From: Gammaproteobacteria bacterium
Lineage (GTDB): Bacteria > Pseudomonadota > Gammaproteobacteria > SZUA-140
Assembly: GCA_016218365.1 (NCBI GenBank)
Contig: JACREF010000017.1
Location: forward strand, 1 to 64,000
Direction: 5' to 3'
Length of the DNA stretch: 64,000 bases
This document shows positions 22,824 to 58,027 of this stretch, in pieces. The position numbers and the translations under genes are program-made. How positions within the stretch are numbered: the stretch's first letter is position 1; every line of letters starts with the position of its first letter. The notes below the pieces were generated by a model. That model was not told the origin of the DNA. It saw only the letters and a list, made by a program, of their open reading frames with translations, and searched no databases.

Positions 22824-24035
22824 TCAGCCATGGCGGCCCCTGACACCATCATATTCATCATCTATACAGCTATTGTCTGAATCGAGAACCATCGCCAACA
22901 AGCGACCGATATGCTGGACTATATCAAGCGTCACCCCATCATGCAGCGGCAAGGTCACCAGCCTACGTGACCAGTCTGTGGCATGAGGAAAACCTGCCTC
23001 AGTAGTACCACCGACCATAGGTGGCAAAATCTCCGGCAATGGCGCCGGATACATTGGTGAGCCACCACCGCAGGTTTCATTGATCCTGGCCAGCAGCGCG
23101 TCCCGCACCTGCGGTGATGGCAACAACAGCGGGTAGCGTGACAATGCCCCAAGCGCTGCGCCCATGATCCCGCAGGCTGCCGCCACATCGAGCACCCCGC
23201 GCGACTGAAATTGAGCCGCCATTTCCGCCAGCCACTGCTGCCGTTGCAGTGATGCGTTTTGATAGTTCGCCAGATTGCCCGCCAGCACCGCGCGTGCATC
23301 AGGCGAGATCCCGGACCAGTCACCGCGCAGCGGCCGGTAATGGGTCTCACCGAGACGCAAGAAGGGCATCGCCCTGAGCCAGCGATAACGGGCCGGGGCA
23401 CGCAGGAAATTGTAGGACCGCCATTTCAGCGGCCGCGACCAGGCCTCGACCAACGGATAACCGTCCGGGATGGGCAATCGGGCAAACAACTCCGCGTCCT
23501 CAGACAACACCGCGCCACCGCCCAGAATGGTCACTGGCTTGCCGCGTCCGAAACTCAGCACGGTAAAGTGCCCGGCCCAGTCCCGTTGCTGCCGGGCATA
23601 GGGGTACGACTGCGCGGCATCCTCGATATACAGCAGGTCCCCCGCCTCAGCCAGCCGCCGTAACTGCGCGCCGCGCTCCGGGATGCCAAACAGGTGGACG
23701 CCTACCAGTGCCACGGTCCGGTCATTGATCTGCCGCTCGACCTGGGCCAGATCCAGCCACGGCCGTTGCTCGGCCAGATCCACCATGACCGGCCTGATGC
23801 CGGCATACTCGGCCGCACTGACCAGATCCGGACAGCCATAGGCCGGGATGATCGCCTGCGGATCAGCAACAGCACGCCGCTCCCGGGCCACCTGCAATGC
23901 CGCCGCCAGTGCCATGGTGCCGGATTTGTAAAACATCGGGCGACGCGTGCCAAACAAGGTTCGAAGGTACTCGTCTGGACTCGGGTGCCGTCTGATGATC
24001 ACGCGTTCGCCGGCCGGGGGCAGTGAATACTGCAT
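22824..24035 (-). CDS. DegT/DnrJ/EryC1/StrS-like aminotransferase
   Basis: MFYKSGTMALAAALQ, IIPAYGCPDLVSAAEYAGIRPVMVDL, YIEDAAQSYPY, SFGRGKPVTILGGGAV. Confidence 0.85.
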   Translation of the reverse strand: MQYSLPPAGERVIIRRHPSPDEYLRTLFGTRRPMFYKSGTMALAAALQVARERRAVADPQAIIPAYGCPDLVSAAEYAGIRPVMVDLAEQRPWLDLAQVERQINDRTVALVGVHLFGIPERGAQLRRLAEAGDLLYIEDAAQSYPYARQQRDWAGHFTVLSFGRGKPVTILGGGAVLSEDAELFARLPIPDGYPLVEAWSRPLKWRSYNFLRAPARYRWLRAMPFLRLGETHYRPLRGDWSGISPDARAVLAGNLANYQNASLQRQQWLAEMAAQFQSRGVLDVAAACGIMGAALGALSRYPLLLPSPQVRDALLARINETCGGGSPMYPAPLPEILPPMVGGTTEAGFPHATDWSRRLVTLPLHDGVTLDIVQHIGRLLAMVLDSDNSCIDDEYDGVRGRHG

Positions 24036-26397: not shown

Positions 26398-27492
26398 TCA
26401 TACCAGAGGCAGAGATTTATCGTATAAGTGATGATAACGATCCATCATTGCATCCATCGTAAATCTCTTCTGTACCGTCTGACGGCCTGCCACTCCCAGC
26501 GTACTGCGCAGCATTGGATCATCTGCCAGCCGGGATAATGCGGCGGCAATGCCCTCTACATCTCCAGCTTCTATCAGCAAGCCATCTACCTTGTCAGTGA
26601 TAATCTCCTCTGGCCCACCACAGCGTGTCGCCACCACCGGCAGGCCCTGCGTCATGGCCTCAATCACCACAATCGAGAAGCCTTCACTGGACGAGGTCAA
26701 CAGAAATATATCCATGCCATCCATAAAAGACGAGACGTCATCACAGAAACCAAGGAAACTGACCCGGTCATCCAGCCGGAGCTGAGCTCGATAGTCATGC
26801 AGCTGCTGCCACAATTCGCCCTTGCCCTGCCCGGCCACCAGGAATTCAAATCGGTCATCGAGTTGGCGGAGGCGAGCAGCCACCTTCAATAAGGTAAAAT
26901 AGTCCTTGGCCGGCCGGATATTCCCCACCAAACCAACCTTGAAGATGGCCTTATCAGATTTTGCTACATCGCTGCTCGCAGCCTGCTGGCCGGCAGCAAC
27001 TCCATTATGAATGACCTGAATCCGGTCTGCCTTGATGCCATAGGTCGTGATCATATATTGTTTCAGATTATCAGACACCACAACTAGCACAGAGGCGTAC
27101 TTGTGTAGGACGAATAATTTCACACGAATGAAACGCTCCCCCTGCAAGTCAGCAATACCATGCAAGGTCACGATCACCGGCCGGCGACACAATAATCCAG
27201 CCAACACACCATAGACGCCTGATCCCAGCAGATGGGCATGGATCAAATCAATATGCTCACCGCGCACCACCTTCAGCAGACGAAACAGATATCGAATATT
27301 GAATGAGCCTTTGTTGTTCAGGATCCGCACCGCCACCTGACCCTTCATCAAGGAATCATGCAGCCAACCGTTACGGGTTATCAGGGCAATCGATCTATAT
27401 TTTATGCGATCAAGGCGGGTGACGATATTGCGAAAGACAGTCTCTGCCCCGCCCGGCCCTGCGGTGTCGATCAGGTGTAATATATTTGTCAT
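26398..27492 (-). CDS. GT4 glycosyltransferase
   Basis: LIDTAGPGGAETVFRNIV...FLLTSSSEGFSIVVIEAMTQGLPVVATRCGGPEEII. Confidence 0.92.
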   Translation of the reverse strand: MTNILHLIDTAGPGGAETVFRNIVTRLDRIKYRSIALITRNGWLHDSLMKGQVAVRILNNKGSFNIRYLFRLLKVVRGEHIDLIHAHLLGSGVYGVLAGLLCRRPVIVTLHGIADLQGERFIRVKLFVLHKYASVLVVVSDNLKQYMITTYGIKADRIQVIHNGVAAGQQAASSDVAKSDKAIFKVGLVGNIRPAKDYFTLLKVAARLRQLDDRFEFLVAGQGKGELWQQLHDYRAQLRLDDRVSFLGFCDDVSSFMDGMDIFLLTSSSEGFSIVVIEAMTQGLPVVATRCGGPEEIITDKVDGLLIEAGDVEGIAAALSRLADDPMLRSTLGVAGRQTVQKRFTMDAMMDRYHHLYDKSLPLV

Positions 27493-27508
27493 ATGCTATA
27501 ATTTGATC

Positions 27509-28543
27509 ATGCGTTTGAAAAAACTGCTTAAGACGGCAATCTCCGCAACCCTCTACCATTCCGGTCTGCATCGCGCCCTCCGCAGCAGGAACGCCCTGAC
27601 AATACTGACCTATCACCGTGTTCTGCCATGTGATGATAGCCGATACCTTAACGAACAGCCAGGGATGGTGGTCCAGCCTGACACGCTGGCCATGCATCTG
27701 CGTGTTGTCAGCAAATACTACACCCTGATCCATCTCGATGAATGGGTCAGCCGTTATCAGAACGGCGCCCCATTGCCCAGCCCTGCCTGCGCCATCACCT
27801 TTGATGATGGCTGGGCTGATAATTTTGAATATGCCTATCCAATCCTCAAGGCCGCCCAAGTCCCGGCCAGCATCTTTATCGTCACTGACATGGTTGGAAA
27901 AGAGTATCAATTCTGGCCCGGACGACTGGCCGCGATCATCCGGCATCACAGACTACCTCAGCAGCTCTTTGAACAGGATGCCCACCCTGGCATCCACTGG
28001 CTATTACAGCTGCTGCCAGCTCCGATTGCCCAATTTCAACCCTCCACGGCAGCGATCGACGCCATTATTGAACACGCCAAGATGTTTTCTGATCATGAAG
28101 TCACTCAGCATGTCAGCCACATTGAGACACTGCTTGGTTTCAGTGGTAACTCAAGTTCACACACACCTGAAATGTTGTCATGGGAACAGATCAACACCAT
28201 GACCGAAGACGGACTGATCAAGATTGGCTCACACACACGAAGCCATGCCAGACTTAATCAGCTGTTGCCGGAGCAGGACATGCGCAGCGAGATTGAACAA
28301 TCCAGCATCGCCATCAAACATCGCACCGGAATCTCACCGTCGCTGTTTTGTTACCCCAACGGTGACCATACCCCCCTGGCAATCGAGCTGGTCAGTAACC
28401 AGTATCATGCGGCCTGCAGCACCATCCCTGGCGTCAATGCTCCAGGTCAACTAGAACTGCATCTGCTAAAACGGTTCACCATGCATGAAGATATCAGTGA
28501 TAATGAAAGCCTGTTCATCTGCCGAATCCTCGGCCTGTTTTGA
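27509..28543 (+). CDS. NodB-type polysaccharide deacetylase
   Basis: CAITFDDGWADNFEYAYPILK, KIGSHTRSHARLNQL, SPSLFCYPNG. Confidence 0.92.
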   Translation: MRLKKLLKTAISATLYHSGLHRALRSRNALTILTYHRVLPCDDSRYLNEQPGMVVQPDTLAMHLRVVSKYYTLIHLDEWVSRYQNGAPLPSPACAITFDDGWADNFEYAYPILKAAQVPASIFIVTDMVGKEYQFWPGRLAAIIRHHRLPQQLFEQDAHPGIHWLLQLLPAPIAQFQPSTAAIDAIIEHAKMFSDHEVTQHVSHIETLLGFSGNSSSHTPEMLSWEQINTMTEDGLIKIGSHTRSHARLNQLLPEQDMRSEIEQSSIAIKHRTGISPSLFCYPNGDHTPLAIELVSNQYHAACSTIPGVNAPGQLELHLLKRFTMHEDISDNESLFICRILGLF

Positions 28544-30626: not shown

Positions 30627-31499
30627 TCACAACAGGGAATAGTCAAACGACCTGCCCGCACATGCGGATTCTACAATCTCCTTTACCGGTGAAAATTCAA
30701 ACTCCGCCAGCAGCCGTTTGATCCTGCCCGCATAGCGCTCAATGTTGTTGTAATGCCTGAAGCGTGAAAAACCCTTCAGTCCGACCTCCGGGTGATCGCG
30801 ATCGATCTCCCAGGGATGGAAATAAAACATGAAACGGCGCTGCTGCCTTGCACTTACATATCTGAACAGGTATCTGCTGAGGATTTCTGGATAGAGTCGG
30901 AAATAACCACCACCAGTGACCGGCAGGGTAAAGCCAAGGATATTGGTCACTGTGATTGGCCACTCCATGATGGCATAGCCTGCCGGAGTCTTCGCGCAAT
31001 GGGGATTGATCTCCACCCCCGTGAGGCCGTAACGGTCATGCCTGATGGGAAAAATACTCGAATCATACTTGAAACCGGCCTCTGCCAGCACATCCAGCGC
31101 CCACAGTGATCTCCTTGTGATCGAATAGCTTGCTGCACGATAGCCCGATATCTCATCACCAATGGCATCCTCGATGATCTTCTTGGCATCCCGGGTCTCG
31201 CTGGCAAACTCCTCCGGTGACTGCTGATAGACCAGCTTGTGACTCAAGCCATGGCACGCGACCTCATGACCTGCAAGCACAATCTCCCTGATCAGTCCGG
31301 GATGACGTCGGGCCACAACACCCAGGACAAAAAATGTTGCCTGTACACCAGAGGCGGCAAACAACTCCAGCACCTTGCGGGTATTATCCTGCACACGCTC
31401 CGGTAAGTCTTGCCACTGCGATCGAGGCAATACCGACTCAACTGCCGTAGCATGGTAATAATCCTCTACATCAACCGTCAATGCGTGTGCACGCGTCAT
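30627..31499 (-). CDS. XrtA system polysaccharide deacetylase
   Basis: MTRAHALTVDVEDYYHATA, GHEVACHGLSHKLVYQQSPEEF, GYRAASYSIT. Confidence 0.93.
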   Translation of the reverse strand: MTRAHALTVDVEDYYHATAVESVLPRSQWQDLPERVQDNTRKVLELFAASGVQATFFVLGVVARRHPGLIREIVLAGHEVACHGLSHKLVYQQSPEEFASETRDAKKIIEDAIGDEISGYRAASYSITRRSLWALDVLAEAGFKYDSSIFPIRHDRYGLTGVEINPHCAKTPAGYAIMEWPITVTNILGFTLPVTGGGYFRLYPEILSRYLFRYVSARQQRRFMFYFHPWEIDRDHPEVGLKGFSRFRHYNNIERYAGRIKRLLAEFEFSPVKEIVESACAGRSFDYSLL

Positions 31500-33886: not shown

Positions 33887-34762
33887 TCATCCCTTCCCCT
33901 TCTTGCCCTCGGTATAATACCGGCCATAATACGCGCCGTAATAATCGCCACCCACCGCGGTGATCCGGTCACGCTTGGTGAGGATCATGCCGATGGCAGA
34001 CTCATTTTTTATAACTGATAGTGTCTGCTGCAGGGCGGCTTGCGGCGTCTTCCCCGCCTCAACGACGACCAAGGTCTGACCCACATGATGTATCAGGGCT
34101 GCAGCCTGGCTGGTCATCAGCACTGGTGTTGAATCAATCAGAATGATCCTGTTTCCATAACGTTCGGACAACTCGCTGGCCAATTGTTCCATGCGCTTGC
34201 TGGAAAGCAACTCTGTCGAATAATCATGATCAGCGCCCGCAGGCACCACCTTCAATTTTTCAATACTGGTGCTGTACAACACCTCGGAGATATCCTTCTT
34301 TCCCTCCAGCACCTCTATCAAACCCGGGGCCCGATCAACCCCAAGGATTTTCGACAGATTTCTTCTGATCATATCGCCGTCTATCAACATCACGGTACTG
34401 TCCTGCTCCATCGCGATACTGAGAGCAAGATTCAAGGTGGTCAGGGTCTTGCCCTCTCCGGGCAGACTGCTAACCACTGCCACCAGGTTGCTGCGCGCCA
34501 AATGCTGGCTCTTTTCACCAAAACTTTTATTCAATATCGGCCTCTTAATTGCCCGATACTCTTCCTCAAGCAGCCTGCGCTCCTGGTCGTTTTCTGTGGA
34601 ATAATTCTTGAATTGTTCCAGATCAATACACCTGCCTCTGGCATTTGCGTTTCGATTTCTGCCCGCAGTTGATGGTCCTGAAGTAGCCGCGCCCTTTCTG
34701 TCGCCACCCCACTTCATGCCGACCTTGTCGAGCAACGCCATCGCCTTTTCAATACTGTTCAT
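33887..34762 (-). CDS. XrtA-associated tyrosine autokinase (BY-kinase)
   Basis: VVSSLPGEGKTLTTLNLALSIAMEQDSTVMLIDGD; C-terminal Tyr cluster DYYGAYYGRYY. Confidence 0.93.
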   Translation of the reverse strand: MNSIEKAMALLDKVGMKWGGDRKGAATSGPSTAGRNRNANARGRCIDLEQFKNYSTENDQERRLLEEEYRAIKRPILNKSFGEKSQHLARSNLVAVVSSLPGEGKTLTTLNLALSIAMEQDSTVMLIDGDMIRRNLSKILGVDRAPGLIEVLEGKKDISEVLYSTSIEKLKVVPAGADHDYSTELLSSKRMEQLASELSERYGNRIILIDSTPVLMTSQAAALIHHVGQTLVVVEAGKTPQAALQQTLSVIKNESAIGMILTKRDRITAVGGDYYGAYYGRYYTEGKKGKG

Positions 34763-34790: not shown

Positions 34791-36335
34791 TCAGGTCACA
34801 AATTGCACAACGGTTATTCCGGTATAGACAACCAGCAATAGTAACCATGCCAGCAGATAGCGCCGCACGCCCTTCTTCATAGCATTCTTCCCCGCTGCAG
34901 TATGAATGACGCTGACCGCCCCATAAACCGGCAAGCCGGTTACCGTCCGCAGCGTCTGGGCGTCATAGATGACTGGACTGGACTGCGCGCTGAACAACGC
35001 AGCAACGATCCCCGCGGCAAGTGCTGCCAGCAATACCACCGCATTCAGCAGATATCTGTTCGGAAACGCCGGGTTGCTGGGCACCCAGGGCGGGTCGACC
35101 ACCCTGAATTTGATGTCGTCTCCGACATCACCGACAACACCCGATAATTTTGCCGACTCCAGGCGATTGAGTAATTCTTCGTATTTTTCCTTGGTTACGC
35201 TGGTATCGCGATTTAGTCGTTGCAGCTCCACTTCGACCCCGGGCAAGGTATTAACATTACTCTCCATGCCATGGACTTTCCGATTGTATTCATCCATACG
35301 TACCTTGATCGAGGCGATCCTGGCATCGGCCTGTGACAGCGAAAGCCTGAGTTGCTGGGTCAGGTCACTGACAGGAGGTGGCGCATCATCAGGGGCATTC
35401 CTGACTCTGGCTACAATCCTGGCCTCCTCACGGGCGCGCTGCCCCTCAAGGTCGGTTATGGTATTTTTTAACTTCACTACCTCCGGATGCTCTTCGGTAT
35501 ACGCCAGTAGCCGGGCATCCAGCTGATCTTTCAGCTCGGCAATCTTCTGATCCAGACTCCTGATCTCCGGTGAGGTGAAATTCTGGCTGCGTTTGATCTT
35601 TGCTTCGGCTTCAGCCAGCTGCCGGCTGTATTCAGCCCGTTCCTGTTCCGCCTGCCTTAACTCCAGCCTGGACTGATCCAGTCCATCACGTAACGACTGC
35701 AAACGGCTGTAATATCCACCGCTCTGATCGGGCATTAGCCCAATGTTCGTCTGTTTGAATTCCAGCAACTTGTTCTCGGACTCATGAAGCCTGGCTTCAT
35801 ACTCACGGATCTGCTCTTCAAGAAATTTCTGCGCTGATGCTGACTCTTTACGGGTATCACCCAGGGTATTTTCCATAAAGATGTTCAGGGCCTCCTGCAC
35901 AACCTGCTTGGCCTTGGCCGACTGGTGATGACTGTAGGAAATCAGATACAGGTTAGGTTCCTTGACGTTTGACTCGATCTCGATCTTGCTGGTCAGCTCG
36001 TCAAGCACCTCCTCCATATCCTTATCTGTTCTTGTATTGATGTCGAAATCCACTGCACGCGCGATCTTCTCGAGATTCGGGCGACTGAGCAGGGTCCGGC
36101 TCATCAGGGACAGTCGCTCCTTGACATCCGGCTGTACGGCGATGTCTTTGAGCAAGGGTCTCAGTATCGATTCCGAGTCAACATAAACTCGGGCACTGGC
36201 CTGATATTGATCCGGGATTATATAGACACCGATCCATCCGCCTATGGCCACCAGCCAGGCAATGGCCAGTGCCAGCCAGCGGTAACGCCAGAAATCCTGT
36301 GCACGATCAATTAACTGCCTGATCCCCTCGACCAT
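34791..36335 (-). CDS. Wzz/chain-length determinant protein, XrtA-associated
   Basis: N-terminal WLALAIAWLVAIGGWIGVYIIPDQYQASARVYVDSESILRPLLKDIAV; coiled coil; C-terminal TMs. Confidence 0.93.
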   Translation of the reverse strand: MVEGIRQLIDRAQDFWRYRWLALAIAWLVAIGGWIGVYIIPDQYQASARVYVDSESILRPLLKDIAVQPDVKERLSLMSRTLLSRPNLEKIARAVDFDINTRTDKDMEEVLDELTSKIEIESNVKEPNLYLISYSHHQSAKAKQVVQEALNIFMENTLGDTRKESASAQKFLEEQIREYEARLHESENKLLEFKQTNIGLMPDQSGGYYSRLQSLRDGLDQSRLELRQAEQERAEYSRQLAEAEAKIKRSQNFTSPEIRSLDQKIAELKDQLDARLLAYTEEHPEVVKLKNTITDLEGQRAREEARIVARVRNAPDDAPPPVSDLTQQLRLSLSQADARIASIKVRMDEYNRKVHGMESNVNTLPGVEVELQRLNRDTSVTKEKYEELLNRLESAKLSGVVGDVGDDIKFRVVDPPWVPSNPAFPNRYLLNAVVLLAALAAGIVAALFSAQSSPVIYDAQTLRTVTGLPVYGAVSVIHTAAGKNAMKKGVRRYLLAWLLLLVVYTGITVVQFVT

Positions 36336-36338
36336 AGG

Positions 36339-37043
36339 CTAAAACCATGACTCCGGAATGATCAGGATATCACCCGGCAATAGATCAAGATTTGCCGAGA
36401 TGTCGCCGGATTTGATCAAGGCATCAAGATTGATCGGGATCTCCGTCTGTTTGCCGCCAACCTTGCGCACCAGGCGCGCCTTGTTACCAGCGGCAAATTC
36501 TGTCATGCCACCCACTGCAATCATCAGATCCAGCAATGTCATGTGGTCGCGATAGGGTAGCGCCTGGGGCTTGGTGGCCTCACCGACGACCCTGACCTGT
36601 TCGCTGAACCGTCCGACGAACTCCTTGACGATGACGGTGACCACAGGGTTCTTTACATATTTGGCGAGCCGCTCCTCCATCTCCCGCGCCAGCTGGGACG
36701 GTGACTTGCCACTGGCCACGATGTCTTCGACCAGCGGGGTCGTCAGCCGGCCATCCGGCCGTACTGGCACCATTGTTGACAGATCAGGATTGCCCCAGAC
36801 AAAGATCTGCAACATATCACCAGGACCAATCAGATAAGCCTGGCTTGCCCGAGCATCCGCACCCTTGGGAAGTGTGGCGCTATCTGGTCCAGCCCCCGTC
36901 ACGCCAGCCACCTGACCTGGTTTGTTGGGATCAAGACTGCAGCCGATTACGGCAACTCCAAGCAGGAGCGCCAACAAAAAATAATATAAGCGTCTGATAC
37001 TCATGATTCTATCGCAACTCTCCTCCACCTTCAGCCGCTGCAA
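36339..37043 (-). CDS. Polysaccharide export lipoprotein (Wza/EpsE-like), XrtA-associated
   Basis: Lipobox VIGCS; YLIGPGDMLQIFVWGNPDLSTMVPVRPDGRLTTPLVEDIVASG. Confidence 0.93.
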   Translation of the reverse strand: MQRLKVEESCDRIMSIRRLYYFLLALLLGVAVIGCSLDPNKPGQVAGVTGAGPDSATLPKGADARASQAYLIGPGDMLQIFVWGNPDLSTMVPVRPDGRLTTPLVEDIVASGKSPSQLAREMEERLAKYVKNPVVTVIVKEFVGRFSEQVRVVGEATKPQALPYRDHMTLLDLMIAVGGMTEFAAGNKARLVRKVGGKQTEIPINLDALIKSGDISANLDLLPGDILIIPESWF

Positions 37044-41581: not shown

Positions 41582-43116
41582 CTATTTGTCCAGAATCCCT
41601 GCAAATGCAGCCGCAAACCGCGGCACGACAATGCGGGAAAAATCGCGCAGATCCGCCACTATCGCCTGCTGTCCCTCATCGCCTTGTTTGATAGCCGAGA
41701 CGATCACCAAAGAGGTGCCTGCCCGCCCCCTAAGCAGCGAGACAAGCTCATGCAGTTTTGCCTCTAATGCATCGGCGCTCCAGATTCCGTTCACACCATA
41801 CCATTTCCACACCAGACGCTGTCCGCCATGATCGTTCTGCAGCAAGGATTCCGGCACCATAAAGGAACCACGACCGATATCGATCTCCCTGGTACCGCCA
41901 TCCTGCTGGAGCCAGGACTTATGGTCCGCCACCCGGTTCAGATCACTGATGGCCTCATGACCCTGTTGCTGCCGCAGGAAATAGCCATAATACAGGTCAA
42001 TCTGCCGGCCGGTAGCTGATTCATAACGCATCTGAATGTGGAGATCCCCAGCCGCCACTGCCGGTTGCCAGTCAGGGGTCAGATCAGGACGCGCCCGCCA
42101 CTGCCCGAGCTGCATCGGATAGCTGAGCTGTGAGGACTGCAGATCTGCATGCGCCGGTACTGCCAACAGCCAGACCAGCCCCGGCCCGGCCAAAGCAGCC
42201 ACCAGCGCGATCCCACCCCGGCCAATGATCTGCAGGGCCCCATCCTGCTGCCGCAGATCCGCCGATGACGGGCCGGCTGGAACGCCCTGCTGCTCAAAGC
42301 AGTAATCAGGCAGGTACCGCGATGAGGCAAACAGAAAGGCCCCCATACTGACGGCAAACAGTATCCAGCCGAGCATGACGTGATCTGTTGTCACAAAATA
42401 ATGCTGCATATTGGTCAGGTAACCCGCCACTACCACCACATAGACCCTTATGATGTTCATGATTACGGACATCAGCACTGCGGCCAGCACATACATCATC
42501 CAGTAACGGATCCTCATGCCATTGATCTGACCATAGATCAAGGCTATAGCAATGGCGGCGACCAGGTACCTGATACCGCTGCATCCTGGCGAAATCTCGA
42601 ACACACCGGAGGCGATGGAGATAAAAAATCCTTCGCGTACCGCAATGATCCCGGAGAGATCGAGGAGGTGATCCACGCTTACCGTGGTGATTGTCTGCAG
42701 GGCAGGGCCGAGGATTTCCCACACCGGCAGCGCTGTGATCATCAGCACAAAGGGAAACCAGAAACGCAAGGCCGATCTGAGGCCAATGATGACGGCAAGA
42801 CCAAGAAAGATGATTGTCAGCAACGCCAGGTACTGCAGCAGCTGGACATGAACACTGCGAAACATTGCCCAGCTCACAGCTGCCAGCAGCAGCAAGGCCA
42901 CTGGCACCCATACCCCGGCTTGCAGCGTATGTTCCGCACTGCCCCAGATTCGATAGAAGAAATAGACTGCGGACAGCAATACCAGCACGCCATGTGAATA
43001 GGTGGGATTTGCGTGGTTCAACCACACCGCAATCAGGTCATGCATCGTCTGAAAATATATGGATACGATACCCAGCATCGTCGCCAGCACTACCCCACCG
43101 GCCGAATTCAGACGTT

Positions 43117-43123
<7 letters not shown>
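41582..43123 (-). CDS. xrtA: Exosortase A fused to EpsI-type C-terminal domain
   Basis: Cys motif SPGCSGIRYLVAA, Arg motif NIIRVYVVVVAGY, His motif TTDHVMLGW; multi-TM; periplasmic C-terminal domain. Confidence 0.93.
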
Positions 43124-44484
<1,361 letters not shown>

Positions 44485-50333: not shown

Positions 50334-51584
50334 CTATGCAACTTCAGCCACCACATTATCTTTAGTAGCCACATTGTTTAGTGCAACAACAAATGAAATG
50401 TAAATCCAGAAAAATGGATAATACAAAACCGTTACAAAAAAACCACTTGTTAACATGCCAACCAAGGCAATATCAAAGCCATGCGACATCCAGTAAATAA
50501 AATTATTACTATTTAATATTGATATTTTCCTGGTTCTCATGTTGATAATTAATGAATAGATTATCATCAGAACGAAGCCAAACAAGCCCGCCAAGCCAAG
50601 CTCGGACGCGGCTTGAATGAAAACATTATGTGGCAGCTGCACCCTTCCACCTATTGCATAATATTTTTCGTAATAGAGCATCCAATTATTATAACCTATG
50701 CCAAAAACTGGATTATCTTTTAACATATCAATTCCAGCCTTCCAGTATGTCAATCTGGACACAGAAGATTTATCCTCCCCCATTTCGATGAATCGCTGTA
50801 TAAACTCAGCTGGCATAAAATATATGCTGACAATACTGATCAGTGATATCGCCAGAACAACCTTAATGGATAATTTTGATTTTAATATCGCATATATCCC
50901 CATAGCGGCCAGCCCAAGCACTGCCCCCCTTGAAGAACTAGCAACTATGGATCCAAGAGCTGTAATCAAAACTATAATTAATATTGCATATCTAAGATTG
51001 TTTATATTTTTTCTAATCGAGGCCATAAAACATATTAATAACGGTATAAATATACACATTTCAATCCCAAACTCACCGGAATTGTGAAACCAGCCAGGAG
51101 CCCCCGTAGCCCCCCAGGTTCTAAACGAAAAGCCATTGGTCGCCCAAGAAATAAAGCCATGCTGGGACATCTTAAAATTGAACAGAAAATAGAGAAGCAG
51201 AAAGATAAAAAATCGCTTCTCGTTATTTACTACTTTAATTATTAAGAAATATATCAAATACCATGAGAAAATAAGCTCAATATTATCGAGTGACATCGCA
51301 GTAGAATATGCGAACATACTCGACAGGAGTATCACGCCAATAAATATTGAAAATTGCAGATTTAACGGGTTTTTTGGCCGCGGATATTTATCGCTCAGGT
51401 ATACGCCCAGCATTAGCAGGATGAGAATAATCCGCGAATACGGCACCACATCAATTACGGGATATATTGATTGCGGCCTTACATACTCAAAGAATAGATA
51501 TAAGCAGATTAAAAGAAAGGGCCATGATTCATGTCTGAAATGGCCCCATATTTTATTCAACTTAATGCTATAGAAATCCTGCAC
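50334..51584 (-). CDS. O-antigen ligase/polymerase-like protein, possibly XrtA-associated type
   Basis: FFEYVRPQSIYPVIDVVPYSRI, FNFKMSQHGFISW, GIGYNNWMLYYEKY...LPHNVFIQAASELGLAGL; GTG start inside a G10 tract. Confidence 0.85.
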   Translation of the reverse strand: MQDFYSIKLNKIWGHFRHESWPFLLICLYLFFEYVRPQSIYPVIDVVPYSRIILILLMLGVYLSDKYPRPKNPLNLQFSIFIGVILLSSMFAYSTAMSLDNIELIFSWYLIYFLIIKVVNNEKRFFIFLLLYFLFNFKMSQHGFISWATNGFSFRTWGATGAPGWFHNSGEFGIEMCIFIPLLICFMASIRKNINNLRYAILIIVLITALGSIVASSSRGAVLGLAAMGIYAILKSKLSIKVVLAISLISIVSIYFMPAEFIQRFIEMGEDKSSVSRLTYWKAGIDMLKDNPVFGIGYNNWMLYYEKYYAIGGRVQLPHNVFIQAASELGLAGLFGFVLMIIYSLIINMRTRKISILNSNNFIYWMSHGFDIALVGMLTSGFFVTVLYYPFFWIYISFVVALNNVATKDNVVAEVA

Positions 51585-55241: not shown

Positions 55242-56795
55242 TTATTCAACCCTACCTCTCAATCTAAAGAGTGAATCGTAAATTCCATTGTAACAATACT
55301 GAAATTCATCTACTCCTTTCTTATACGGATCATGAATAACAAGCCTTGACGGATTGGAAAACATACCCAATAAATATATATCTATATTTCTGTCAATCAT
55401 TTTGTGCACTGCAACAATATGGTCTGGCTCCATAATGAAAATGCAATCTCGCTCATTAAAATATATGGATGTCAGATTTCTTGAGCGATGACTTTCCAGG
55501 TCAATTCCAAATGTTTTTGCATTATGAATGGCTTCGTCATTAGCCGGGATATTGCCGTCGGTCTCAAACCCACACGATATTGCATTAAACCCAAAACTCC
55601 GCGCAAGTTGCTCTGCAAATGGACTGCGGCAGACGTTACCCTTGCAAACAAAAACCAGACGGTCATATTGTGTTAGATCAATGTCAGCAGCGCCTGAAGA
55701 AATCTTGCTCATCACCTTATATAGATAATTATTTATTAATATCCTGGCACTACGATGGTGTAATCGCATACGGCCGATGAAAATTTCCGCAATCCTCATA
55801 AATGGTGAGCACACCATCTTCAAATTTAGCAAATCTTCTGGAAACGATATGCGACTCATCATATATGATTTGTAGGATTGTGTTTGCACGATATCCACAT
55901 AACCATGTACTGTGGTCAGTGCGCCAGAATATCCATTATCCTGTAGATAGCTTATCTCCCTCATTCCAAAATCGTGAATCCTTCCTGTCGGATAAATAAA
56001 TATATTCAATGAATCTCCTAACTGGCTTCTCAGCCTTTTCCATGACCCATCTATCTCCTCCTTCATCTCATCTGGGCTACACCGCGATATCACAGCATGT
56101 GTCGCTGAATGTGATGCGATTGTTACCCCTATCTTTTCCAACTCACGCGCCTGACCCCAGGTCATTGGCTGATAACCTTGCGCTGGCACATCGGTCAAAT
56201 GCACATTCAGCAGCTCTGCAATCACCTGTATCAGTCGGTTGTGTTCCTGGTTACCCACCTTTTTGAGATAATCACGCACCTCACGCATTACCGCCATGCG
56301 CTGCCGGTTTGTCCTGATATCGCGGCTTTGATCCAAACCAATCTGCGCAAGATCGATCTTCTCTTGCTCGGTAGCTGTAAACATATAACGCAGCCGGGAA
56401 TCCCATGGCCATAAGTTGCCATCAATAAATCCGGTAATCAGCCCGATCGTCACCGGGCACTTGTATTTGATAAATATCGGTGCCGCGATTGTAGCCTGAT
56501 CGATAAAGCCATCATCGATAGTGAAAGCCACCGCCTTGGGTGGAAGCTTCCTCTTGCCCTGCCGCGCCTCGATGATGTCTTGGACTGACACAAAGTTGCA
56601 CCCATATTTCTTCATGGTCTGCAATGCGGACTCAAGGTAAGGCGCGGTGATCCCGACACTGCCATGCTCGGGATCTTCAAAGCGGTGCATGTAGAAGATG
56701 ACGGCGATGTTTCTGGCAGGGTGGCTCAACAGCCGGTCAATCAGCGGATTGGCGGTACACAACACATAAATCGTTTTAAAAAACTTATTGACCAT
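55242..56795 (-). CDS. NodB polysaccharide deacetylase fused to a C-terminal low-molecular-weight protein-tyrosine phosphatase
   Basis: NodB motifs AFTIDDGF and ASHSATH; C-term VFVCKGNVCRSPFAEQLARSFG (CX5R P-loop) and distal IHDPYKKG (DP general acid). Confidence 0.9.
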   Translation of the reverse strand: MVNKFFKTIYVLCTANPLIDRLLSHPARNIAVIFYMHRFEDPEHGSVGITAPYLESALQTMKKYGCNFVSVQDIIEARQGKRKLPPKAVAFTIDDGFIDQATIAAPIFIKYKCPVTIGLITGFIDGNLWPWDSRLRYMFTATEQEKIDLAQIGLDQSRDIRTNRQRMAVMREVRDYLKKVGNQEHNRLIQVIAELLNVHLTDVPAQGYQPMTWGQARELEKIGVTIASHSATHAVISRCSPDEMKEEIDGSWKRLRSQLGDSLNIFIYPTGRIHDFGMREISYLQDNGYSGALTTVHGYVDIVQTQSYKSYMMSRISFPEDLLNLKMVCSPFMRIAEIFIGRMRLHHRSARILINNYLYKVMSKISSGAADIDLTQYDRLVFVCKGNVCRSPFAEQLARSFGFNAISCGFETDGNIPANDEAIHNAKTFGIDLESHRSRNLTSIYFNERDCIFIMEPDHIVAVHKMIDRNIDIYLLGMFSNPSRLVIHDPYKKGVDEFQYCYNGIYDSLFRLRGRVE

Positions 56796-56851
56796 ATAGA
56801 ATCGCTTTCAGTCCCTGCATCGATCTACTATAGAGTTTATTGGCCCTGTTT

Positions 56852-58027
56852 ATGAGCACTATTGTACTGCTTGGTGGCAACCAGCGATCGACCCTGGCGG
56901 TGACGCGCTCACTGGGTCGGCGCGGCCTGCGTCTCATCATTGGTGACCGCAGCAAGCGCTCACTGGCCGGCCAGTCCCGGTATTGCAGCGCACGCTTTCA
57001 GTATCCTGATCCTTTTGATGCGCCGGAGGCGTTTGTCGACGCTGTCAGTGCTGCCTGCCAGGCGCAGCATGCCACCATGCTGCTGCCGACCACCGATATC
57101 GACACCCAGGTGGTACTGGAGCATGCGGCGCGATTCCCCGGCGTAAACCTGCCATTTGCCCCCTATGCCACCATCAATCAGCTCGCCGACAAGTATCAAC
57201 TGATGCAGCTGGCGTCTCAACTGGGCGTTGCCATCCCCAAGACCTGGTATATCGATGACCCGGCAACGCTTGATTCACTGCTGCCCGAGATCACCTACCC
57301 GGTCATCATCAAACCTGCGGCCTCTGTCATCAAGCATGAGGGCCGCTGGCTGGCCAGCCGGGTGCAACGTGCTGACTCCGAAGCTGAACTCAAATCCATT
57401 ATAACGCACAGCCGCTACCTGACCCATCACCGCTTCATGTTGCAGCAATATATCGCCGGTCATGGCCAGGGGATCTTTACCCTGTATGATCACGGCAGGC
57501 CGGTGACGTTCTTTTCCCATCAGCGCTTACGCGAAAAACCACCTGCCGGCGGCGTCAGTACCTTTTCGCGCAGCGTCGCAGTCGATCCTGCCTTGCAGAC
57601 CATCGCCGAGCAGATCCTCGGGCAGGTTGACTGGCATGGTGTGGCGATGATTGAGTTTCGCATCGCGGACGATGGCACGCCCTATCTGATGGAGATCAAC
57701 ACCCGCTTCTGGGGCAGCTTGCAGCTGGCCATCGACGCCGGCATCGACTTTCCATGGCTGCTGTATCTGCAGGCCACTGGCCAGCCCTTGCCCGCAGCGT
57801 CTGATTATCGGCTCGATCAGAAACTGCGCTGGCTGCTCGGGGATCTTGATCATTTGTACCTGGTATGGCGCGATCGCGATCACCAATATGATTTGGCCGA
57901 CAAGCGGCGTGTCCTGGCGCAGTATATGAATTTCTTTACCGGCACTACGCGTTATGAGACGCTGCGCCTCAATGACCCACGGCCATTTTTGTTTGAACTA
58001 CGCAATTATTTCTTCACCAAGAACTGA
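56852..58027 (+). CDS. ATP-grasp family protein (carboxylate-amine ligase-like)
   Basis: IVLLGGNQRSTLAVTRSLGRRG, YPVIIKPA, VAMIEFRIADDGTPYLMEINTRFWGSL. Confidence 0.9.
   Translation: MSTIVLLGGNQRSTLAVTRSLGRRGLRLIIGDRSKRSLAGQSRYCSARFQYPDPFDAPEAFVDAVSAACQAQHATMLLPTTDIDTQVVLEHAARFPGVNLPFAPYATINQLADKYQLMQLASQLGVAIPKTWYIDDPATLDSLLPEITYPVIIKPAASVIKHEGRWLASRVQRADSEAELKSIITHSRYLTHHRFMLQQYIAGHGQGIFTLYDHGRPVTFFSHQRLREKPPAGGVSTFSRSVAVDPALQTIAEQILGQVDWHGVAMIEFRIADDGTPYLMEINTRFWGSLQLAIDAGIDFPWLLYLQATGQPLPAASDYRLDQKLRWLLGDLDHLYLVWRDRDHQYDLADKRRVLAQYMNFFTGTTRYETLRLNDPRPFLFELRNYFFTKN

Follow-up and report, generated by a model that had tools for sequence, protein, structure and literature searches.

A NodB deacetylase–tyrosine phosphatase fusion from a polysaccharide locus, with a phosphatase subfamily that tracks ATP-grasp and NodB genes rather than the BY-kinase

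Low-molecular-weight tyrosine phosphatases (LMW-PTPs) of polysaccharide loci are routinely annotated as erasers of BY-kinases, and the closest described relatives of the phosphatase studied here are the capsule LMW-PTPs Wzb, Etp and AmsI. The protein that we describe shares with them the fold, the CX5R P-loop, the DPY acid and a polysaccharide locus, but unlike them it is joined to a deacetylase, carries a conserved MEP motif and an N-terminal extension, falls in a separate clade, and shows no tie to the BY-kinase of its locus. Its deacetylase part resembles PgaB, IcaB and PplD in its CE4 fold, its D-D and HxxxH residues and its polysaccharide context; it differs from them in having no signal peptide, in a 'WPWD' insert region and in a C-terminal phosphatase that takes the place of the PgaB hydrolase domain, and its NCBIfam scores lie far under the PgaB and IcaB cut-offs. 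Two further systems bear on the comparison: EcpK of Myxococcus xanthus is a BY pseudokinase that has neither Walker motifs nor a Tyr tail (PMC12004946), and the founding PEP-CTERM paper mentions deacetylases and no phosphatase (PMC1569441). Our literature search, which covered few subscription journals, returned nothing relevant on a link between NodB or ATP-grasp proteins and LMW-PTPs in exosortase loci.

The fusion gene lies in a 64,000-nucleotide stretch of a gammaproteobacterial genome (positions 1 to 64,000 of contig JACREF010000017.1; hereafter the window), where it occupies 55242–56795 on the minus strand, runs for 517 codons without interruption, and encodes a 517-aa protein that is single copy in its own genome. 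Two Pfam domains exceed their curated cut-offs: a NodB/polysaccharide deacetylase domain (PF01522, residues 82–275, E 5e-13; 55971–56552, minus strand) and an LMW-PTP domain (PF01451, LMWPc, residues 381–508, E 8e-20; 55272–55655, minus strand). Both are members of known families. A preliminary description of this DNA had named these domains and their motifs from the letters of the sequence, and Pfam and the translation bear it out. The NodB metal and catalytic residues D94 and D95 (TIDDGF) and H229 and H233 (SHSATH) are kept in the fusion and are unchanged across three aligned fusions, and the phosphatase keeps C384 and R390 in its P-loop (CKGNVCRS; 55623–55646, minus strand) and D489 in its DPY motif, the catalytic C, R and D being invariant in the family alignment. 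With these residues intact, both domains are predicted to be active. In an AF2 model built with an alignment of window and locus proteins (mean pLDDT 90.8, pTM 0.71), two confident domains are joined by one helix (residues 331–369) with a weak hinge at 363–370, where pLDDT is <50; the linker as a whole (residues 331–375; 55671–55805, minus strand) is modelled as a long helix. Foldseek matched the NodB part of the model to PplD (6dq3, TMt 0.81) and PgaB, and the LMW-PTP part to Escherichia coli Wzb (2wmy, TMt 0.89).

We considered which kind of LMW-PTP this is. Thr versus Ile at position PX5 of the P-loop has been described as a rule for phosphatase specificity toward pTyr or pArg (PMC8001253). 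The Val at this position in the fusion points to a pTyr-class rather than a pArg-class P-loop, which argues against an arginine phosphatase, and the P-loop, the DPY motif and the overall fold are of the pTyr-phosphatase type, closest to Wzb and AmsI. Arsenate reductase was rejected as an identity, with ArsC models reaching 32.6 bits against a cut-off of 174, below the Wzb model. The preliminary description had left two options for the location of the domains, either in two compartments or with a cytoplasmic deacetylase. No signal peptide-like start is seen in the fusion, and no transmembrane segment either (the highest 19-residue hydropathy is 1.33). Because neither an export signal nor a membrane span is seen, the cytoplasm is the most likely location of both domains; the cytoplasmic option stands, and the two-compartment option is disfavored.

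The surrounding locus is of the exosortase-associated type and also encodes PrsT. Its kinase (33887–34762, minus strand; TIGR03018, E 8e-69, 231.0 bits against a cut-off of 230.65) has an intact Walker A motif and a C terminus, GGDYYGAYYGRYYTEGKKGKG, with a Tyr cluster that forms a YY..YY..YY tail. The BY-kinase with its Tyr cluster and the Wzz partner, here an XrtA-system chain length determinant (34791–36335, minus strand; TIGR03007, E 4e-150), had both been recognized in the preliminary description. Its EpsG-like label for the kinase does not hold, since the TIGR03018 match and the C terminus identify an XrtA-associated autokinase. An outer-membrane polysaccharide export protein (36339–37043, minus strand; TIGR03027) follows. 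The exosortase at 41582–43123 scores best with XrtW (178.9 bits, cut-off 425) and next with XrtA (173.4 bits, cut-off 208), and, being below both cut-offs, may represent an unnamed subtype. This one polysaccharide locus encodes three different NodB proteins: the fusion, the XrtA-system polysaccharide deacetylase (30627–31499, minus strand; TIGR03006, E 6.5e-103), and a third protein, NodB2 (27404–28543, plus strand; PF01522), which is a recurrent partner in the module described below. The XrtA-system deacetylase is the NodB protein known from this locus type, but it is a separate gene, and TIGR03006 is not among the matches listed for the fusion protein. A homolog of the window gene at 43117–44484 lies past the right end of the window (L268:10955–12334; contig C32, 74955–76334).

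A pattern scan and the family relatives revealed no other fusion at first, and 19 genomes of the same family or order gave no match to the fusion. The notion that the fusion is unique to one genome was overturned by searches with its phosphatase half and with a fusion profile. The phosphatase half retrieved the same architecture, full-length, from two gammaproteobacterial genomes, G220 and G093 (MAG S141_38), where it is the next gene downstream of the XrtA deacetylase and the XrtA locus has an intact kinase. A profile of the three fusions then retrieved a full-length protein of 572 aa from Geothermobacter hydrogeniphilus HR-1, a member of another phylum, and in a further lineage, G105, the fused NodB domain is divergent and the fusion gene adjoins a partial ATP-grasp. 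Pfam confirmed both domains in all four of these proteins. The fusion is thus conserved, with G105 as the divergent case, and its recurrence in other lineages makes it neither a chance event nor an assembly error. Between 48000 and 60500 of the window, the exopolysaccharide (EPS) locus forms an island of AT-rich DNA, with GC at about 0.37–0.45 and a smooth climb to 0.6 over the length of the fusion ORF. Together with the failure to find a relative with this LMW-PTP type in the organism's own family or order, the island suggests horizontal gain.

The gene encoded divergently from the fusion in the window is an ATP-grasp ligase (56852–58027, plus strand; PF15632, E 2e-12; the ORF opens with TTG at 56840 and the likely start is ATG at 56852). 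Its profile is similar to carboxylate-amine ligases, and Lys, Glu and Asn residues are invariant in the family. It is homologous (E 1e-28) to the N-terminal part of a protein encoded on the Vibrio alfacsensis plasmid pYa108 (WP_221072609.1; L021:4678–6462), in which an ATP-grasp domain is fused to an LMW-PTP near PrsT; a Nitrospira MAG encodes a fusion of the same type (L068:6860–8671). Like our protein, these two join a phosphatase of the same family to a tailoring enzyme and are encoded in polysaccharide loci, but their fusion partner is ATP-grasp and not NodB. Stand-alone LMW-PTP genes lie close to ATP-grasp genes in the opposite orientation in seven loci. Across the stretches examined, ATP-grasp was seen in 15 of the 19 loci with this LMW-PTP type and was absent, within roughly 10 kb on each side, from the other four. 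The window, Arhodomonas, G553 and G351 have in common a DegT aminotransferase, GT2 and GT4 enzymes, a further NodB protein and Wzy_C; in the window, the DegT/DnrJ aminotransferase (amino-sugar supply) lies at 22824–24035 and the Wzy_C O-antigen ligase/polymerase-like protein at 50334–51584, both on the minus strand and both recurrent in the cluster. In a tree of 17 rows, the LMW-PTPs of this module cluster together and separately from canonical LMW-PTPs (support 93/86). This subfamily tracks the ATP-grasp and the NodB type, not the BY-kinase.

The preliminary description had coupled phosphorylation control to deacetylation, which would make the LMW-PTP domain an analog of Wzb that erases phosphorylation of the XrtA BY-kinase of the same locus, with the NodB fusion linking kinase cycling to deacetylation. 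Pairing of LMW-PTPs with BY-kinases is well established (PMC2777267, PMC12004946), Wzb also dephosphorylates Ugd (PMC2516531), the P-loop is of the pTyr type, and an intact Tyr-tailed BY-kinase is present in the window and in the G220 and G093 fusion loci. The distribution of the two genes across genomes argues against such a pairing. An XrtA kinase above the cut-off is carried by 46 of 274 genomes of the class, and only 5 of the 274 carry the module LMW-PTP type (>100 bits), 3 of which are among the 46. When we scanned 30 XrtA BY-kinase loci over as much as 40 kb on either side, 29 lacked any LMW-PTP, with 12 of the 30 scans complete to 40 kb and the others ending at contig ends; the scan had been widened from 20 kb because the fusion in the window lies about 20.5 kb from its own kinase. 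The kinases of these 29 loci each have 3–10 Tyr among their last 30 residues. The sole LMW-PTP-bearing locus, G033, comes from a genome that also has ATP-grasp. LMW-PTP was found in five of six genomes with ATP-grasp and in none of 29 kinase loci lacking ATP-grasp (Fisher, p = 1.8e-5, a value that ignores relatedness and counts G033, whose LMW-PTP and ATP-grasp are on different contigs).

The converse case, phosphatase genes beside kinases that have lost their hallmarks, also argues against the locus BY-kinase as the target. In four phosphatase-bearing loci (Arhodomonas, G351, Marinobacter sp. C7 and M. sediminum R65), the kinase homolog has no Tyr tail and a Walker A motif without the Lys of GK(T/S), as in SGASEGAGASF; L065 and L066 are not phosphatase-bearing loci, and the pseudokinase comparison is one of individual cases. 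The BY pseudokinases of Arhodomonas, Marinobacter and G351 that occupy the XrtA-type position lie at L178:6617–7438, L195:18511–19452, L069:3325–4245 and L073:4359–5258. Those beside Wzz in Arhodomonas and the Marinobacter relatives resemble EcpK in having neither Walker motifs nor a Tyr tail, but, in contrast to EcpK, their loci also carry an intact LMW-PTP, and the window's own kinase is intact. Genome-wide searches for BY-kinases found no intact one in three genomes: Arhodomonas and M. sediminum R65 yielded nothing beyond the pseudokinase and MinD, and Saccharospirillum impatiens nothing beyond MinD. G351 has a Tyr-tailed Wzc-type kinase with another LMW-PTP of its own within 2 kb (C14:192906–195566), on a contig other than that of the module phosphatase. 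This kinase/LMW-PTP pair is a useful internal control for the module phosphatase. Based on this family-wide evidence, we conclude that it is not partnership with the BY-kinase that maintains the phosphatase in these loci. In the window the phosphatase may act on the BY-kinase or on substrates of that kinase, and a kinase role is likewise conceivable in the G220 and G093 fusion loci, but neither kind of target can be the required one for the family as a whole. The claim of a kinase–phosphatase link therefore stands as far as the pTyr-class P-loop goes and finds no support as to erasure of the locus BY-kinase, given the 29 kinase loci, the pseudokinase loci and the ATP-grasp association, and we regard the locus kinase as a doubtful answer to what the domain acts on.

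It could also be that adjacent genes were joined neutrally and that the two products serve one pathway independently of each other. Split versions are common among relatives: NodB and LMW-PTP are adjoining separate genes in the same order in Arhodomonas aquaeolei and in MAGs L055, L057, L061, L063 and L077, and L063 has an intact LMW-PTP copy near a short NodB fragment. Stand-alone LMW-PTPs have an extension at the N terminus that aligns with the linker of the fusion, which suggests that the two genes were joined cleanly, end to end. On both the phosphatase and the NodB trees, the fusion label requires about three changes, as though the fusion comes and goes; repeated fusion or fission is therefore likely and a single origin disfavored, the number of events being uncertain and the NodB tree poorly resolved. 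Against independence of the products, the fusion arose or persisted in several lineages, a second and different fusion (to ATP-grasp) exists, and active sites are intact in both, so we find a merely neutral joining unlikely.

The association with ATP-grasp and NodB, the fusions to either, the presence of the LMW-PTP where no BY-kinase was found and the distinctness of the subfamily from canonical members would also suit a metabolic phosphatase, one acting not on a protein but on a small phosphorylated tailoring intermediate, such as one made or used by ATP-grasp. We think this quite improbable: by its P-loop, DPY and fold the domain belongs with the pTyr phosphatases, Wzb and AmsI being the nearest, and none of the evidence indicates a small-molecule substrate. 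That two genes were joined by a fault of assembly or sequencing can safely be set aside. GC does drop, from about 0.48 over the NodB domain to 0.39 over the LMW-PTP domain, but it does so in a smooth gradient along the border of the AT-rich locus; the reading frame is unbroken, and the architecture occurs in independent genomes.

The reading that we favor, with about even confidence, is that the fusion is a cytoplasmic two-enzyme component of a NodB/ATP-grasp module for amino-sugar tailoring, with the phosphatase acting on a protein of the polymer machinery. Two neighboring exopolysaccharide tailoring genes would have been joined end to end to give the fusion ORF. The CE4 domain would strip the N-acetyl group from an amino sugar of a precursor or lipid-linked repeat unit at the inner face of the membrane, and the freed amine could then be acylated by the divergently encoded, amide-forming ATP-grasp ligase, a hand-over that we infer from co-occurrence. 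The LMW-PTP domain, as a putative pTyr-class phosphatase kept at the assembly by the fusion, would dephosphorylate a protein of the polymer-building machinery, and the BY-kinase is probably not its sole substrate. By analogy with E. coli, where sugar enzymes such as Ugd are among the targets of BY-kinases and Wzb (PMC2516531), a protein target inside the polysaccharide pathway is plausible. More tentatively, and with somewhat less than even confidence, we propose for the family as a whole that a distinct LMW-PTP subfamily left the BY-kinase partnership and joined the NodB/ATP-grasp module of exosortase-associated loci, where it is alternately fused to one enzyme or the other and works beside pseudokinases.

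Within the literature that we searched, the NodB/LMW-PTP combination, the alternate ATP-grasp fusion, the separate clade and the persistence of the phosphatase beside pseudokinases are new, a statement that does not establish priority. An entire LMW-PTP subfamily goes with a set of tailoring genes and occurs in places where our searches found no active BY-kinase. That it is fused in some cases to NodB and in others to ATP-grasp is a Rosetta-stone signal that the deacetylation, ligation and phosphatase steps belong together, and the kinase-free LMW-PTP loci provide a concrete way to ask what such phosphatases act on.
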